A stretch of DNA of 64,000 bases from Chitinophagales bacterium (lineage in GTDB: Bacteria; Bacteroidota; Bacteroidia; Chitinophagales; UBA10324): the NCBI GenBank assembly GCA_025056305.1, contig JANWWJ010000044.1:1-64000 (forward strand), read 5' to 3'. Positions 28,251 through 35,013 of this stretch are shown here, in pieces (positions within the stretch are counted from its first letter, which is position 1; every line of letters begins with the position of its first letter). The translations under genes and the position numbers were made by a program. The notes beneath the pieces were generated by a model. That model saw nothing but the letters and a program-made list of their open reading frames with translations. It did no database searches and had not been told where the DNA came from.

Positions 28251-29335
28251 GGGCAGTGGTTCGGCGTATTTTATTTATAGGCCCCCATCGCCCCGACCGC
28301 AATCCAAGCCAGCGGTTTCGCATGGAACAATTTTTCCCATATTTGAACCAGGCCGGTATCGCCTACGATTATTCATGGTATTTGTCGGCTGCCGACGACA
28401 CGGTGTGGTATCAGCCTGGTCAGTGGTTGCAGAAGGCGCGGATTGTTGCCAAAGCCTTTCTAACACGGCTTAAGGATGTTTGGCGCAAAAACCATTACGA
28501 TGTGGTTTTCGTGCAACGTGAGGCCTTTATGCTGGGAACAGCATGGTTTGAGCGGCATCTCAAAAGCCGCCGCACCCGACTGATCTATGATTTTGATGAC
28601 GCCCTTTGGCTTGGAGACACTTCTAATGCTAATGCGCGCTTCGCCTGGCTGAAGCGTCCCACCAAGATCAACCGCATCCTCAAAACAGCCGATTTGGTCA
28701 TCGCAGGAAATGACTATCTGGCTGCTTATGCCCAAAAGTTTAATTCCCAAGTTATCGTGATCCCTTCTGTAGTAGATACCGAGCGTTTCAGGCCCAAACA
28801 ACCTGATTCGGAAAAACAACGCTTGTGCATTGGCTGGTCGGGATCACACACCACCTATCGCCACTTCCAGCTGGTGCTTCCAGCCCTAACAACCATTCAT
28901 GAAAAGTTTAAAGACCAGATTCAAATCACGGTGTTGGGCAACATGCCGCCGGGCGAAAGAGCGCTTCCCATCAGGTGGGAAAAATGGACGCCTGAAACCG
29001 AGCACGAACAGCTGAGCAATTTTGATATTGGACTGATGCCATTGCCTGAAGAAGAATGGTCGAAAGGAAAGTGTGGTTTCAAAGCCCTCTTATACATGGC
29101 CGTCGGGGCCGTGCCTGTTGTATCACCGGTAGGGGTTAATTCGAAGATCGTACAGCATGGAAACACCGGCTTTCATGCCACGACCAATGAAGAATGGATT
29201 TCTGTGCTTTCGCAACTGATCACGGACGCCGGCCTCAGACAAAAAGTTGGTGGACAGGCACGTCGATTTGTAGAGCAACATTTTTCGTTACAGGCCCTGG
29301 CAGAACGGTGGGTAAACGTGTTGCTCAGTGTCTAA
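28247..29335 (+). CDS. Glycosyltransferase (GT4-like)
   Basis: 362 residues. The start RRILFIGPHRPDRNPSQRFR shows a basic acceptor loop; IYDFDDALW and the later GLMPLPEEEWSKGKCGFKALLYMAVGAVPVV block are characteristic of a Bacteroidota GT4-like group. It starts inside the preceding stop (ATGA) and ends the eight-gene series. Its last 11 bases overlap the 3' end of the convergent membrane protein gene. Confidence 0.85.
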   Translation: MRAVVRRILFIGPHRPDRNPSQRFRMEQFFPYLNQAGIAYDYSWYLSAADDTVWYQPGQWLQKARIVAKAFLTRLKDVWRKNHYDVVFVQREAFMLGTAWFERHLKSRRTRLIYDFDDALWLGDTSNANARFAWLKRPTKINRILKTADLVIAGNDYLAAYAQKFNSQVIVIPSVVDTERFRPKQPDSEKQRLCIGWSGSHTTYRHFQLVLPALTTIHEKFKDQIQITVLGNMPPGERALPIRWEKWTPETEHEQLSNFDIGLMPLPEEEWSKGKCGFKALLYMAVGAVPVVSPVGVNSKIVQHGNTGFHATTNEEWISVLSQLITDAGLRQKVGGQARRFVEQHFSLQALAERWVNVLLSV

Positions 29336-30773
29336 AGGAAGAAAGCTCTGCAGGGTTCAACACGGAACGTACCCTTCCCTGGCCACGCTTGGCATAAGCC
29401 ATCCGCATCTTTTGTGTATAACTCTGCTCGCGTTGCCTTGCTGCTTCGTAATTGGTGAGAACAAGACCCAACAGAAAAAATGGAATACATGGAATCTTAT
29501 ATCTTACCAAGGCGCCGAAATTGTAGCTGGTAAAACCTACGGCAAAGGCAAACACCAACGCAAAAATCATACAGAACATGATCGTAGGGTTTGAAAACAT
29601 AACCGTGAAGGTGTTCTTGATACCATTTCTGTAAAATACGCTAATCGTAAATATTAAAATCACCAAACTTTCCAACGCCGAAAAAATCATCACCACGCTT
29701 TTTGCCTCCCAGAGGTAAGGTCGGAACAACGTCACATTGATCGATGCCGGAAGCTTGCTGATCACACTTTGCCACGACCCATCCACCTCTCCCAATGAGT
29801 AACCGGAAGCCTGCTCTGCCTCCGAAAGGTAGCCGTGCCATTTGTGGAACGTCTGTGCCGTGGTAAGCACATTGCGTAAAGAAAACTGCGTGAACTCCTC
29901 GCCCAACTGCTTCACCAGAAAGTAGCCGAAAACCAACGATACAGCAACGACGACCGGCCCCGAAAGAACACGGATAAATTTCATTTTGATCAGGGACCGA
30001 TAAGTCAAAAACAACCAGAACAACAGGGCAGGAAGAAAACTGATGATGATGTACGCTTTAATGTTCAGGGCCAGATATCCGGTAATTAAAAGAATGATAA
30101 TATTTCTAATGATTTTTCTTCCTTTGAAAAAAATCTGGTGACTGGTGTAAACCACCCAACCCAAGCTGGCCAGCGTTATGCTATCTTTCAGAATGCCTGA
30201 GCCCCAGAAAAACACGGAAGGCACAAACAAAATGCAGTAGGCAAATGGGCGATGTAGCGCAGGGTATATATTAACAAAGGTGATATACATGGCCCATACC
30301 CCCGTAAACGACAGGAAAGCGATGAGCACACTCATCACGGGGTACGAATGAAATCCTACGACACTTAATATGCCATAAACCTTGTCTGCCGTCCAGGTCG
30401 AGGTATCGCGGAAAAAGGTAAGCCAGCGGGTGCTTTCATAGGTGGCTAACGTGTATTTACCGGCAGGAAGCAATAAAAGCTCAAAAAACAATCCCAGCGA
30501 CTGGCCTATGGCGTTGTTAAACGTTCTTGAATCATAGTAATAATAAAATGTATCTCCTCCTTTGTAATAAAAACCATAGATGGCGCCCAACAGCAGCGCT
30601 CCGAAAATTTTTACCAGCAAGCCCGGCATGAAGTATTGCTTGACGGGTGTGTTTCGGTACTTGATGTTTCGGTATAATACCGCAAACAGGAGTAAGAAAA
30701 ACAGGTAAATAGGGAGGAGTATAAAATCCACTTCCCGAAGAAATACGATCGTGCCGTCTTCAGCCTTGAACAC
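29325..30773 (-). CDS. Polytopic membrane protein, candidate glycan polymerase
   Basis: 482 residues with about ten to twelve hydrophobic helices spread over residues 14-430 and a basic C-terminal tail. Between helices there are aromatic-rich loops (for example YYKGGDTFYYYYDSR near residue 75) and a long central loop. The topology, size and place next to glycosyltransferases suit a Wzy-like or EpsG-like polymerase, but no signature proves it. It is read opposite to the glycosyltransferase series and is 45 bases from the upstream metallo-hydrolase gene, so it may share transcription with the minus-strand block. Confidence 0.55.
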   Translation of the reverse strand: MFKAEDGTIVFLREVDFILLPIYLFFLLLFAVLYRNIKYRNTPVKQYFMPGLLVKIFGALLLGAIYGFYYKGGDTFYYYYDSRTFNNAIGQSLGLFFELLLLPAGKYTLATYESTRWLTFFRDTSTWTADKVYGILSVVGFHSYPVMSVLIAFLSFTGVWAMYITFVNIYPALHRPFAYCILFVPSVFFWGSGILKDSITLASLGWVVYTSHQIFFKGRKIIRNIIILLITGYLALNIKAYIIISFLPALLFWLFLTYRSLIKMKFIRVLSGPVVVAVSLVFGYFLVKQLGEEFTQFSLRNVLTTAQTFHKWHGYLSEAEQASGYSLGEVDGSWQSVISKLPASINVTLFRPYLWEAKSVVMIFSALESLVILIFTISVFYRNGIKNTFTVMFSNPTIMFCMIFALVFAFAVGFTSYNFGALVRYKIPCIPFFLLGLVLTNYEAARQREQSYTQKMRMAYAKRGQGRVRSVLNPAELSSFRH

Positions 30774-30818: not shown

Positions 30819-31622
30819 CTAAGTTGAAGAGGAAGCTGTAAAACCCGTAGCTATCCGATGTGCTTTCAGACGGATGCCAGAACCGACCCAGGCAAATTCG
30901 GCTACCGCTCTTTGGGCATCATGAAAGAACAAAAACTGCCAGCCTTCAGCAGCTCCTTGCTGCGCCCACTGCTGCCTCAATGTCTTACTGCAAACAGGGT
31001 GGGCATCGTATTTGGCCAGAAAGCGCCGAAGCAACTGATGCGCGTGTGGGGCTACGTCGCCGCCGAAAAAGTAATGCCCATGGGCAAGGAAAAAATGAAA
31101 ACATTGATGTCCTGGCGTGTGTCCGTTGCATGCCTCGACATGAATTTGGCTATTGATGCGTGCCGCTCCTTTCAAACGAGTTAACTGAGGATGATTGAAA
31201 AGAAATTCTAATGCATCCCATCGATAAGATGGACTATGTTTTTTTTCGGATGCATAAACAACTTCCTTCTCCTGTACGTAGACAACTGCTCGAGGAAAAG
31301 TCAACTGCCATTGTTTTCCGTCAAACCAGGTGGCTCCTCCTGCATGATCTTTATGAAAGTGGCTTAAAAGAACATATCTGACGTCTAAGGGGGAAAAGCC
31401 ACATTTTTGAATTGCCACGTGAATCCATGGCTGCTGATTGCCGGTGCCCAGACCCGGATCCACCACCGCCAGGCCGTCGTCGGTAACGATCAAGAAGGGC
31501 ACCACATCTACCAACAATGACCCTTGCGAACGTTCTTGCAGGTTGTCGTTGTGCGGGTCGAATGGAAGAAATTTTTTGGTTTGATCGACAGTAAATGTGC
31601 CTTCATAAAGTGGAAACACCAT
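30819..31622 (-). CDS. Metallo-beta-lactamase-fold hydrolase
   Basis: 267 residues. The metal-binding signature HFHKDH is at about 88-93, followed by GHTPGHQ (third His) and GGDVAPH (Asp and spacing before the last His). The layout resembles lactonase-like and glyoxalase II-like members of the superfamily; no signal peptide is evident, so it is probably cytoplasmic. The substrate is unknown. It starts 20 bases after the DUF5777 gene stop, suggesting co-transcription. Confidence 0.85.
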   Translation of the reverse strand: MVFPLYEGTFTVDQTKKFLPFDPHNDNLQERSQGSLLVDVVPFLIVTDDGLAVVDPGLGTGNQQPWIHVAIQKCGFSPLDVRYVLLSHFHKDHAGGATWFDGKQWQLTFPRAVVYVQEKEVVYASEKKHSPSYRWDALEFLFNHPQLTRLKGAARINSQIHVEACNGHTPGHQCFHFFLAHGHYFFGGDVAPHAHQLLRRFLAKYDAHPVCSKTLRQQWAQQGAAEGWQFLFFHDAQRAVAEFAWVGSGIRLKAHRIATGFTASSST

Positions 31623-31642: not shown

Positions 31643-32581
31643 TCACCATCCTTTCTGCCCCAAGACAAAATTGCGCGTAAGGTTAAAGCCCCAGCGGAAT
31701 TCACCGTCTAACCAATTGCTTTTGGTGGCAGGTAAAAACGAATTTTCCAGAATACCCGCTGCATTGGTGAACGTAAGCCCAAACACATGACCTCCTGTTT
31801 CAATCTCTACGCCGATGCTCAGGGGGTTGTAAAAAAGTTTTTTGCCGCTTTCATCGGTTTCATAGCGCCGGTAGTCGCTGAAATTATAGAAGTAATCGGC
31901 CACCAGTGCCGTGCGCTTGGTAAGCTTGATCCGGCCTCCGATGCCAAGGGAAAACAGGTCGTTTTGGTCTTTGTAATATACATAATTGCGATGTGTCCAG
32001 GTGGGCAACAACATAAGCGAAACATCAGCAGAGAATTTGCGGGCTATGATGATTTGGGTTACATAAGACCAGCGATGGGCAAAATTGTCCTGATAGTAGG
32101 CATCGGAAGTCGAGTCTGACGATGACTTTCGTGTGGTGACCGCTGCCACACCGTAAAAGGTTACGCTCAGCGGAATGCGGTTATCGGTTGTTTGCCACAA
32201 CAACCGGTACTTGACATTGCCGTCATAAAGCTCGGTGTAGGGCTCTAACCCCTTGGAACGACCCACTCCTATCTGCAATCGGTCCGTAAAGCCATAATCA
32301 AAAGAAAACCTTATGTCGGGCGCTTGATCCAAACCGAAAAAGCTGTGCAGGTTGAGTTTCTGTTCGGTGAATACTGTACCAAACCGGTGTGCAATGTTGA
32401 AGTGAAGATTGTGCGCCTTAGCCGTTTCGTTGGTTTGTGCGTTGATGAGTCGAAAGGCCTTGAAGGTAGCCAGGACCGGCTCAGCTTCCGTTTCGTCAAG
32501 TTGATCGGCCAGCACCGAAAGCTCATCTTGAGCATACAGGGCGCCCCAGGAAAAAATCAGAAGCACGAAGGTTTTTTTCAT
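31643..32581 (-). CDS. DUF5777 family outer-membrane beta-barrel protein
   Basis: 312 residues. A signal peptide ends near ALYAQ (about 17-18). The rest alternates short amphipathic strands with turns (for example FSFDYGFTDRLQIGVG and FSLGIGGRIKLTKRT), as expected for a beta-barrel, and matches the DUF5777 family in pattern and length. Function is unknown. Next to YceI and haem-motif proteins, it may serve as an outer-membrane component of an electron-transfer or lipid-linked process. Confidence 0.75.
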   Translation of the reverse strand: MKKTFVLLIFSWGALYAQDELSVLADQLDETEAEPVLATFKAFRLINAQTNETAKAHNLHFNIAHRFGTVFTEQKLNLHSFFGLDQAPDIRFSFDYGFTDRLQIGVGRSKGLEPYTELYDGNVKYRLLWQTTDNRIPLSVTFYGVAAVTTRKSSSDSTSDAYYQDNFAHRWSYVTQIIIARKFSADVSLMLLPTWTHRNYVYYKDQNDLFSLGIGGRIKLTKRTALVADYFYNFSDYRRYETDESGKKLFYNPLSIGVEIETGGHVFGLTFTNAAGILENSFLPATKSNWLDGEFRWGFNLTRNFVLGQKGW

Positions 32582-32649
32582 GCATGCGGGTTTGAATCCG
32601 TTTTTAAAATTACCTCAATGAGAAATTTTTTCTGTACGCCATCCAAACA

Positions 32650-33195
32650 TCAGGGAGCAGGGGTAAGCGTGCTGCTTACTTTCACCTGAACGACTTCTGC
32701 AATGTTTTTGACGACGATGGTTGGGATCTTGATGTTGTGATCGGCCACCCGCACATCAAACTCAGAGTTGACCTGCAGGGTATTGTCCTTCAATGTGAGA
32801 GTACCTGGGATCTGACGCTTTTGCGCAACCCCATGAATGGTGAGTTCGCCCTCCACAGTAACGTCATAGCTTCCGTCTTGAAGTGGATCGGGAAGGTTTA
32901 AAATTTTTCCTTTGAAAGTGGCATATGGATACTTATCGCTTTCCATATAGTTTTCATTAAAATGTTCCTGCATCAAGGCTTTTTTAAACTTAAAGGTCTT
33001 TATAGGCACCTTGAAAAAAACGGCCCCTGTAGCCAGGTCAATAACCCCCACTGCGCTTTGGGTGTGGGCATCAATATTTTCCAGTGGCGCCTCGGAGAAA
33101 AACGATATACTGACCTGCTTGTCCAAAAACGTTTTTTGGGCCCCTGCTTCCACACCCGCAGTGATGATCCACAACACACAGAACCATTTGTTCAT
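32650..33195 (-). CDS. YceI family periplasmic protein
   Basis: 181 residues with a signal peptide (cleavage near EAGAQ). The body has the YceI lipocalin-like pattern: FKVPIKTFKFKKALMQEHFNE, the ESDKYPYATFKGKI strand and an EGELTIHGVAQKR segment close to the end. The family binds isoprenoid-like or amide lipids in the periplasm. The gene lies between the DUF5777 gene and the haem-motif lipoprotein gene on the same strand. Confidence 0.88.
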   Translation of the reverse strand: MNKWFCVLWIITAGVEAGAQKTFLDKQVSISFFSEAPLENIDAHTQSAVGVIDLATGAVFFKVPIKTFKFKKALMQEHFNENYMESDKYPYATFKGKILNLPDPLQDGSYDVTVEGELTIHGVAQKRQIPGTLTLKDNTLQVNSEFDVRVADHNIKIPTIVVKNIAEVVQVKVSSTLTPAP

Positions 33196-33241
33196 AACGG
33201 AAATTTTTACTCACTGAAACAACTTACGTACCAACTAAAAC

Positions 33242-33631
33242 TTAGTTGTTCAGGTAGCCCTGCTCAATCCACCGTTTCAGCACTTCCTCATCGCACCGCT
33301 CCAAAGTGGTAGGGCAACCGTTGCAGAACGAGGGAGGCATGCGCTGGCCTGTAGCGAATGGACCAAAGACGCGGTCTTGGAATATGCCGGCTTCAATGAG
33401 CCGTTGGAGTTCGTCGTAAACTGTTAAATCAGGGTTGTTCGCCCCCGGATGATGACAGTCCCCAAACTGAGGATTGGAACAATAGGTATTGATGATGGGC
33501 ACAACATCGGCACTGTAAGAGATGACTCGTCCGCTGTCAACACAAGGTTGCTGAGGTGGTTCGGGAGTGACGTCGCTGGTGCACGAATTCAAAAAAAGCA
33601 AAATGCTTCCGTAAAATAAGATGTGGCGCAT
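33242..33631 (-). CDS. Small lipoprotein with cytochrome c-like features
   Basis: 129 residues. An N-terminal lipobox (FLNSC, Cys near residue 17) predicts a membrane-anchored lipoprotein. It contains YCSNPQFGDCHHPG, in which the two Cys are seven residues apart before His (CX7CH), and ends with the RMPP...CP..LERCDEEVLKRWIEQGYLNN-like tail typical of planctomycete-type c cytochromes, where a Met-Pro supplies the distal ligand. A covalently bound haem is possible but the linker is longer than the canonical CXXCH. The T9SS gene ends 9 bases upstream. Confidence 0.6.
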   Translation of the reverse strand: MRHILFYGSILLFLNSCTSDVTPEPPQQPCVDSGRVISYSADVVPIINTYCSNPQFGDCHHPGANNPDLTVYDELQRLIEAGIFQDRVFGPFATGQRMPPSFCNGCPTTLERCDEEVLKRWIEQGYLNN

Positions 33632-33640
33632 GTCTGCACG

Positions 33641-34495
33641 TTAAGGCCGATAGTAAAATTTTACCGAATGCTGCTGTGCATCAGTGGAGAACTGCAATAA
33701 ATATAGGCCTTCAGCCAAACCCGCCGGCAAGAGCAACTGACGCCGATGATTTCCGGCCTGTTCTTGCTGATCGGAAAACACCTGTAACATGCGTCCCGAA
33801 AGGTCATACAATACCCACCGCACGGCAGTGGGCTGAGCTAAAAAGTACGACACGTCAATCTGTCGGAACCGAATGCCCTCAATTTGGAATGACAGAGGCA
33901 TAGAAGGATATGCCGTCAGACCGACACTGGATTCCGGCTCAATGCACAACGAGGCCGTGTAAATATTATCTCCGCTGGTATTTCCGCTGTTGTTGGAAGC
34001 ATTGCCGGCAGCGTAAAAGCAGATTTTTCCAACGTCGGTTGCCGGCGCAACCCAGTTGATAACCCATTGGCTGGTTGACGTATTAGCATCGCGATGAGCC
34101 ACATATTTCCGCTTGGGTAAGGAAGAGATAGGACTCGGATAAGAGACCAGAATTCCGGTGGCTTCGTTAAGAAACTTTCCCGGCGTGGAGTCGTTGGTAG
34201 CATTGAGGGCCGTCAGCTCGAAGCCCCACTTGGTTTTGGTGGGGTCTGAAACCTTCACGGTGATTTGAAACGTGTCGCCCGGAATATACTTCAGGGCTGG
34301 GTTGCTAAACGTTAAAGTAATACTGCCCTGACCACTATTGACCGTACCGGCATGACAGTTAGAGGTAGCACAGGTGTTTTCGCTGGGTGCCCCGGTGCGG
34401 CTGCCCGGAGGCTGCAGATCGTTGGTGTAGGAAGTGGTGCCCACCACAGCAAACCCCGCTAACGCCACAACAGCAGCAAGTATGGCTTTTTTCAT
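33641..34495 (-). CDS. T9SS-targeted 'choice-of-anchor V'-type secreted protein with CX4CH motif
   Basis: 284 residues from the ATG at 34495 (MKKAILAAVV; earlier in-frame codons lie upstream of a normal signal peptide). After the signal peptide comes a short segment with TGAPSENTCATSNCHAG, which in related proteins carries the TGAPG...CxxCH pattern; here the spacing is CX4CH. A beta-sandwich Reeler-like domain follows, and the C-terminus (about 215-284) is a type IX sorting domain. I infer a surface-exposed or secreted protein that may bind haem or metal. It is the first gene of the group with the haem-motif lipoprotein, YceI and DUF5777. Confidence 0.7.
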   Translation of the reverse strand: MKKAILAAVVALAGFAVVGTTSYTNDLQPPGSRTGAPSENTCATSNCHAGTVNSGQGSITLTFSNPALKYIPGDTFQITVKVSDPTKTKWGFELTALNATNDSTPGKFLNEATGILVSYPSPISSLPKRKYVAHRDANTSTSQWVINWVAPATDVGKICFYAAGNASNNSGNTSGDNIYTASLCIEPESSVGLTAYPSMPLSFQIEGIRFRQIDVSYFLAQPTAVRWVLYDLSGRMLQVFSDQQEQAGNHRRQLLLPAGLAEGLYLLQFSTDAQQHSVKFYYRP

Positions 34496-34557
34496 AACAA
34501 AGTTGGTTTGAGCCCAAGGTAGAAACAAAAATCAAATCCGAAAAGTTGAAGGCCATG

Positions 34558-35013
34558 CTATGCTTCCGATTCTAAAATTTGAGCGGCATGTTCCTTTGCT
34601 TTAACCTTAGATATAATTTTTTCTATTCTTCCGTTTTCATCTATCACAAAAGTGGTACGGAACACCCCCATATAGCGGCGTCCGTACAACGATTTTTCCC
34701 CCCAAACGCCGTATTTTTTAATTATGGTCTGATCCGGATCTGCCAACAAGATGAAAGGTAACTGATGCCGCTCTGCAAACTTTTGATGCGACGCTACGTC
34801 TTGCGGGCTGACCCCAATTACCACGTATCCTTTTTTGCTTAAGGTCTGGTAATGGTCGCGCAGGTTGCAAGCTTGCGTAGTGCATGTGGGAGTAAAATCT
34901 TGAGGGTAGAAATACAGCACTACTTTCTTTCCCCTGAAATCTTTAAGCCGAACGGAGCGCCCATGCTGATCCTTGGCGCTGAAATCGGGAGCAAGAGAGC
35001 CTACCTGAAGCAT
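34558..35013 (-). CDS. bcp: Peroxiredoxin of the Bcp/PrxQ type
   Basis: 151 residues. DFTPTCTTQAC places the peroxidatic Cys at 44 and a second Cys five residues later at 49, the PrxQ arrangement. It reduces hydroperoxides at the expense of thioredoxin; no signal peptide, so cytoplasmic. Its start is 8 bases after the M23 peptidase stop, so it is the last gene of a symporter-peptidase-bcp run. Confidence 0.95.
   Translation of the reverse strand: MLQVGSLAPDFSAKDQHGRSVRLKDFRGKKVVLYFYPQDFTPTCTTQACNLRDHYQTLSKKGYVVIGVSPQDVASHQKFAERHQLPFILLADPDQTIIKKYGVWGEKSLYGRRYMGVFRTTFVIDENGRIEKIISKVKAKEHAAQILESEA

Follow-up and report, generated by a model that had tools for sequence, protein, structure and literature searches.

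Gene organization of the locus

We analyzed a 64,000-nucleotide stretch of DNA from a Chitinophagales bacterium, hereafter called the window. An ORF check located four genes, all on the minus strand, with the order, coordinates and CX4CH and CX7CH motifs that the initial annotation had assigned to them. They encode a T9SS protein with a choice-of-anchor V (Reeler-like) domain and a C-terminal T9SS sorting domain (33641-34495), a 129-aa lipoprotein predicted from its family profile and conserved residues to be a monohaem cytochrome c with a stretched motif (33242-33631), a YceI-like lipocalin (32650-33195), and a DUF5777 outer-membrane beta-barrel (31643-32581). The intergenic gaps among the four are 9-68 bp, and the same-strand run extends upstream to a gene for a PrxQ/BCP-type thiol peroxidase (34558-35013, minus strand; NF006960, 172 bits) and downstream to one for an MBL-fold hydrolase lying directly behind DUF5777 (30819-31622, minus strand; PF00753, 7.5e-19). 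Scans for promoters (6 found, 6.3 expected) and terminators (11 found, 7.5 expected, sd 3.3) were near background, so the operon claim rests on gene spacing and conservation. The MBL-fold protein bears a likeness to quorum-quenching lactonase models, far below their cut-offs, and its link to the other genes is at the family level. Further on, positions 29325-30773 encode a protein of 482 aa, for which Pfam gave nothing at E 0.001 and which by eye resembles a polytopic membrane protein.

The identities proposed earlier for the last two of the four proteins were borne out by Pfam. The YceI-like protein matched PF04264 with 53.6 bits (4.2e-14; cut-off 23.7) and, weakly, the YceI structure PDB 5ixg, while the DUF5777 protein matched PF19089 with 298 bits (cut-off 23.1). 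The AF2 model of the latter is a barrel of 12 predicted strands that resembles small porins and channels. Across 48 aligned DUF5777 rows, His65, His265, Lys182 and Arg303 are invariant and His197 is nearly so (at least 90%); these residues possibly form a cofactor or ligand site in the barrel. The name DUF5777 was not used in any paper of the literature searched.

The T9SS protein and its CX4CH motif

The T9SS protein starts with ATG at 34495, and the frame also stays open back to a TTG at 34528, an alternative start that would lengthen it. It matched NF041895 (choice_anch_V) with 88.3 bits (cut-off 42) and the sorting-domain model TIGR04183 with 28.2 bits (cut-off 23), and its score for the Pfam sorting-domain model PF18962 was 16.4, below the cut-off of 27. 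A homologue in locus L052 matched Pfam Reeler. The CX4CH motif, CATSNCH, is encoded at 34352-34372 on the minus strand. In 40 aligned rows (of 43; three were dropped because their start was not found by pattern), the motif residues Cys, Cys and His are kept in 40, 39 and 40 rows, respectively, and a second His in 37. This second His is His134 of the window protein (146 in ORF numbering; codon at 34094-34096, minus strand), a candidate distal ligand, and a bis-His haem in the T9SS protein is thus possible as judged from these residues. Against it stands one relative with the same gene order, in L053, in which the second Cys is missing.

Choice-of-anchor V domains were found in 189 of 296 class genomes. 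Among 62 rows, the spacing was CX2 in 27, CX3 in one, CX4 in 10 and CX5 in four, and 20 rows had no motif; these 20 include fragments and other T9SS proteins caught by the profile, three of them being CHRD or M1 peptidase proteins. The initial annotation had read the two non-canonical spacings in adjacent genes as a sign of a shared haem or metal function. Outside the window's family, neighbouring T9SS protein and cytochrome have spacings of 2/2 (loci L046, L190 and L191), 4/4 (L192), 2/4 (L189, L194 and L195) or 4/2 (L065 and L193), and CX4CH is common in both protein families. The two spacings therefore vary independently, two odd ones side by side are not a signal, and we rejected a coupled expansion of the motifs in neighbouring genes.

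Relationship of the lipoprotein to c-type cytochromes

The lipoprotein carries a predicted CX7CH haem motif, CSNPQFGDCH (33452-33481, minus strand), followed by an MPP sequence. Its residues of interest are the lipobox Cys17, the predicted haem-binding Cys51, Cys59 and His60, the predicted distal haem ligand Met98 (codon at 33338-33340, minus strand), and Cys30 and Cys113, which probably form a structural disulfide. Searched as a single sequence, it matched nothing in Pfam, NCBIfam or the PDB. We then relied on its relatives, whose profile was iterated on the same loci and 79 of which were fetched as single-domain ORFs of 100-175 residues; alignment A1 comprises the window protein and 69 of them, and counts over 80 rows refer to all 79 plus the window protein, with the qualification that loci L108 and L045 are apparently the same contig.

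The A1 family profile gave 58 matches in the PDB at E up to 5, of which 56 carry names of c-type cytochromes or haem-c enzymes, the exceptions being 3jd5_P and 9fct_B. The best were FoxE (1.7e-6) and cytochrome c6 (4.4e-5); in these alignments CH and MP fall on the haem ligands. Taken singly, 25 of the 70 members matched PF13442, the Pfam cbb3 cytochrome model, five matched PccH and four matched PSCyt1. All 80 rows have C51, C59, H60 and W121, 79 have M98 and 78 the lipobox Cys; the remainder of the sequence diverges. The 17 members with a spacer of at least five are 36% identical on average, and C51, C59, H60, M98, P99 and W121 are the sole residues that all of them share. The second Cys pair is present as a whole in 67 of the 80 rows, absent as a whole in 12 and reduced to a single Cys in one. 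Since its two members come and go together, that disulfide does not depend on the motif cysteines, and the separate pair fits a structural disulfide distinct from the haem site.

The AF2 model of the lipoprotein (pLDDT 87.6) has a helical fold. Its best structural match by VIA-align was PccH (4rlr; 2.5 A over 80 residues) at a Z of 7.6, which lies within the tool's chance range, and a Foldseek search with the model gave no match at E < 0.001. Viral contigs, when searched, yielded no relative. The earlier suggestion that this protein has a cytochrome-like tail gains from the family profile and the fixed residues, which support its membership of the c-type cytochrome family.

Spacer variation at the predicted haem motif

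A CXnCH motif is kept in 135 of 135 distinct relatives of the lipoprotein. Canonical CXXCH, absent from the window protein, occupies the homologous site in 81 of the 162 motifs found at these relatives, the others being CX4 (63), CX5 (1), CX6 (2), CX7 (14) and CX10 (1); as the relatives were partly picked as best matches to the window protein and to DUF5777, these frequencies are not population estimates. At the equivalent genomic place, many homologues have an ordinary CXXCH and a later MP. CX7CH also occurs outside the window's family, in families f9, f22 and f78. In 78 of 80 rows the first motif Cys lies at a distance of 5 from a conserved hydrophobic residue of the helix (position 46) regardless of the spacer, which places the extra residues between the two cysteines.

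We also considered a chance motif. Residue shuffling did not suffice to reject it, with CX2-12CH in three of 49 gene-like window ORFs against a mean of 1.02 and a maximum of 5 in 500 shuffles; the homologues, all of which retain CXnCH, did. Given the fixed haem residues, this universal retention and the insertion between the cysteines, CX7CH is best read as a stretched haem motif. All 15 CX7 and CX10 rows have a longer stretch after the Met, as do four of the 65 others. Shared ancestry may account for part of this association, because the tree is poorly resolved: 35 of its 77 inner branches are open forks, and three X7-bearing clades are drawn.

One relative (L187:3758-4810) has two motifs, of which the first is CX6CH (CAMPGQGCH) and the last CXXCH. 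CX7CH also marks a further group, CYGxGxQxCH (L058:7384-9267 and L113:3-1310), whose neighbours are T9SS proteins with CHRD domain repeats; here too a cytochrome with a stretched motif lies beside large secreted partners, of a different family.

Haem attachment machinery

The window genome has Ccm genes and canonical CXXCH cytochromes. PF01578 matched one protein of CcmF size and a smaller, CcmC-like one; the proteins that we take to be CcmF, CcmE, CcmB and CcmC were assigned from length, place and known motifs. Exactly one large PF01578 match was present in 15 of the 16 family genomes, and a second large one in none of the 16. A dedicated second lyase, the trait of MccA/SirA-like systems, was accordingly not found among the PF01578 matches. 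Dedicated synthases are described for CX15CH and CXXCK motifs (PMC6976685, PMC10663686), and the former paper also indicates that Shewanella may load CXXCK through an ordinary CcmF.

There are two options: the CcmF of this genome tolerates a spacer of seven, or the protein carries no covalent haem. Under the second option, members with stretched motifs would have lost covalent haem and would join C51 and C59 in a disulfide; what is left would be a cytochrome relic with a structural or thiol-redox role, in which His60 and Met98 might still coordinate a metal. This reading would agree with the single general CcmF, given that known long motifs are described as needing dedicated lyases (PMC10663686), with the failure of the lipoprotein alone to match any cytochrome model, and with the T9SS-family homologue in L053, which has the same gene order and has lost its second Cys (CGTSTSH). 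However, His60 and Met98 are invariant in 17 of 17 members with a spacer of at least five, which would be unexpected for a disulfide relic; stretched forms persist in several families of the class; and, as the window genome holds one DUF5777 module, loss of haem would leave it without the module's cytochrome. We regard this loss as rather unlikely, and the fixed His60 and Met98 make acceptance of seven spacers by CcmF the more likely option.

Two published surveys counted CXXCH, CX3CH and CX4CH only (PMC5566968, PMC10734462), so CX5 to CX10 cytochromes would be missed by counts of this kind. A literature search found no paper joining CX7CH with CXXCH and cytochrome, and among those retrieved with CX5CH, CX6CH, CX7CH, CX8CH or CX10CH, none concerned cytochromes judging by title and the opening of the abstract.

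Conservation of the cytochrome, YceI and DUF5777 module

DUF5777 is present in 339 of 396 class genomes and in all 16 family genomes. A class-wide search outside the window's family gave 46 DUF5777 loci; with partners counted within 3.5 kb on the same strand, 39 have the cytochrome, 35 have YceI and 31 have both. The initial annotation had asked whether these genes co-occur in Bacteroidota, and they do: the cytochrome, YceI and DUF5777 recur together as a module. The cytochrome is missing near seven of the 46 loci and YceI near 11.

Within the family, peroxidase, choice-of-anchor V protein, stretched cytochrome and YceI follow in that order in eight of the 16 genomes, the window's included, with a CX7CH spacer in seven and CX10CH in one. 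DUF5777 and the MBL protein belong to this stretch in six of them, again including the window, and the other two are cut by contig ends. In the rest of the family, CX2, CX4 or CX5 forms lie next to DUF5777; the exception is G014, where the locus runs into the contig edge. In genomes G004, G005 and G006 the module also exists with a canonical CX2CH, which makes the two types paralogues in these genomes. Loci L186 and L059 of G005 and L187 and L052 of G006 give each genome one canonical CX2CH module and one stretched module (CX10CH or CX7CH), a natural within-genome comparison of the two forms.

This linkage bears on the idea that the DUF5777 barrel acts as a plain channel for solutes or lipids, joined to the cytochrome and YceI only through shared stress regulation. 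The closest solved folds of the barrel (KdgM, FapF, NanC and COG4313 channels) speak for this idea, as do the 15 of the 46 loci that lack the cytochrome, YceI or both. Yet 31 of the 46 loci, spread over many families, link three unrelated folds, and the paralogous modules (L059/L186 and L052/L187) keep much the same partners, with the caveat that L187 has no YceI match. We consider a mere channel quite improbable.

Proposed function of the module

We favor, as the probable explanation, a monohaem cytochrome lipoprotein that acts with YceI and DUF5777 in outer-membrane electron transfer, likely in quenching lipid peroxides or radicals. Homology, the fixed haem residues, the position of the insertion and the gene linkage are the parts that our data show. 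The lipoprotein would be a c-type cytochrome resembling class I, with the lipid on Cys17 as its anchor, five extra residues between the haem cysteines, and proximal His60 and distal Met98 kept. We infer that the general Ccm system attaches its haem covalently. Together with the co-encoded YceI lipocalin, a putative isoprenoid or quinone carrier, and the outer-membrane barrel DUF5777, the cytochrome would shuttle electrons between the envelope and a lipid-soluble carrier. Isoprenoids or ubiquinone are ligands of YceI proteins, which in Burkholderia limit lipid peroxidation jointly with a cytochrome b561 (PMC9113575). By analogy with this proteobacterial YceI/cytochrome b561 pair, and in view of the adjoining PrxQ, the most likely task is perhaps an antioxidant one, the quenching of outer-membrane lipid peroxides or radicals. 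A Pfam scan of the six locus genes found no cytochrome b561 beside YceI. In the window's family, the module would be extended by PrxQ and by the secreted, Reeler-like T9SS protein.

In another proposal, the cytochrome and DUF5777 would carry electrons across the outer membrane in extracellular electron transfer or metal redox, and YceI would serve the quinone side. The best PDB profile match, FoxE, is an iron-oxidising cytochrome, and the DUF5777 histidines are conserved (H65 and H265 invariant, H197 at least 90%). Many canonical members also have an acidic run after the lipid Cys (CYYDNEEEL), like the surface-export signal described for Bacteroidetes lipoproteins (PMC5080379). The window member, however, is without a strong acidic run (TSDVTPEP), the proteins would have single or double haems only, the module has no multihaem conduit cytochrome, and the barrel looks like small porins and channels. 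We hold such a conduit to be unlikely, and prefer electron transfer at the outer membrane with a quenching role.

On a broader and more tentative view, to which we give somewhat less than even weight, the relatives would make up a large Bacteroidota family of outer-envelope cytochromes that carry covalent haem on CX2CH to CX10CH motifs by way of one ordinary CcmF, and that form with YceI and DUF5777 a previously undescribed electron-transfer module of the outer membrane. If so, System I would cope with spacers much longer than those known so far, and a scan that looks only for CXXCH, CX3CH and CX4CH would overlook these cytochromes. If haem is bound, the family would also offer a natural spacer series (2, 4, 5, 6, 7 and 10) at one site of one protein family, which would directly test how haem lyases read their substrates. 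The module further gives the widespread DUF5777 a testable role.

Comparison with known systems

The lipoprotein shares with class I monohaem cytochromes c (c6, PccH, CcoP-type, PF13442) a proximal His after the second Cys, a distal Met about 32-40 residues further on in most rows, a predicted helical fold and the profile match. It differs from them in having CX7CH instead of CXXCH, a lipidated N-terminus, an extra Cys pair and a longer stretch after the distal Met. With other choice-of-anchor V T9SS proteins (NF041895), the window T9SS protein has in common the domain, an N-terminal CXnCH and a sorting tail; its CX4CH departs from the commoner CXXCH, but is itself frequent (10 of 62 rows).

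A long spacer between the haem cysteines is also a feature of the MccA/SirA type (CX15CH, CX12NKGCH; PMC6976685). Those proteins are octahaem sulfite reductases with dedicated lyases, whereas the protein here is predicted to be monohaem and its genome has one match of CcmF size. In the lipid peroxyl radical detoxification by BcnA/LcoA (PMC9113575), a YceI lipocalin is likewise encoded beside a haem redox partner; in the window module, a predicted c-type lipoprotein and an outer-membrane barrel would take the place of cytochrome b561.
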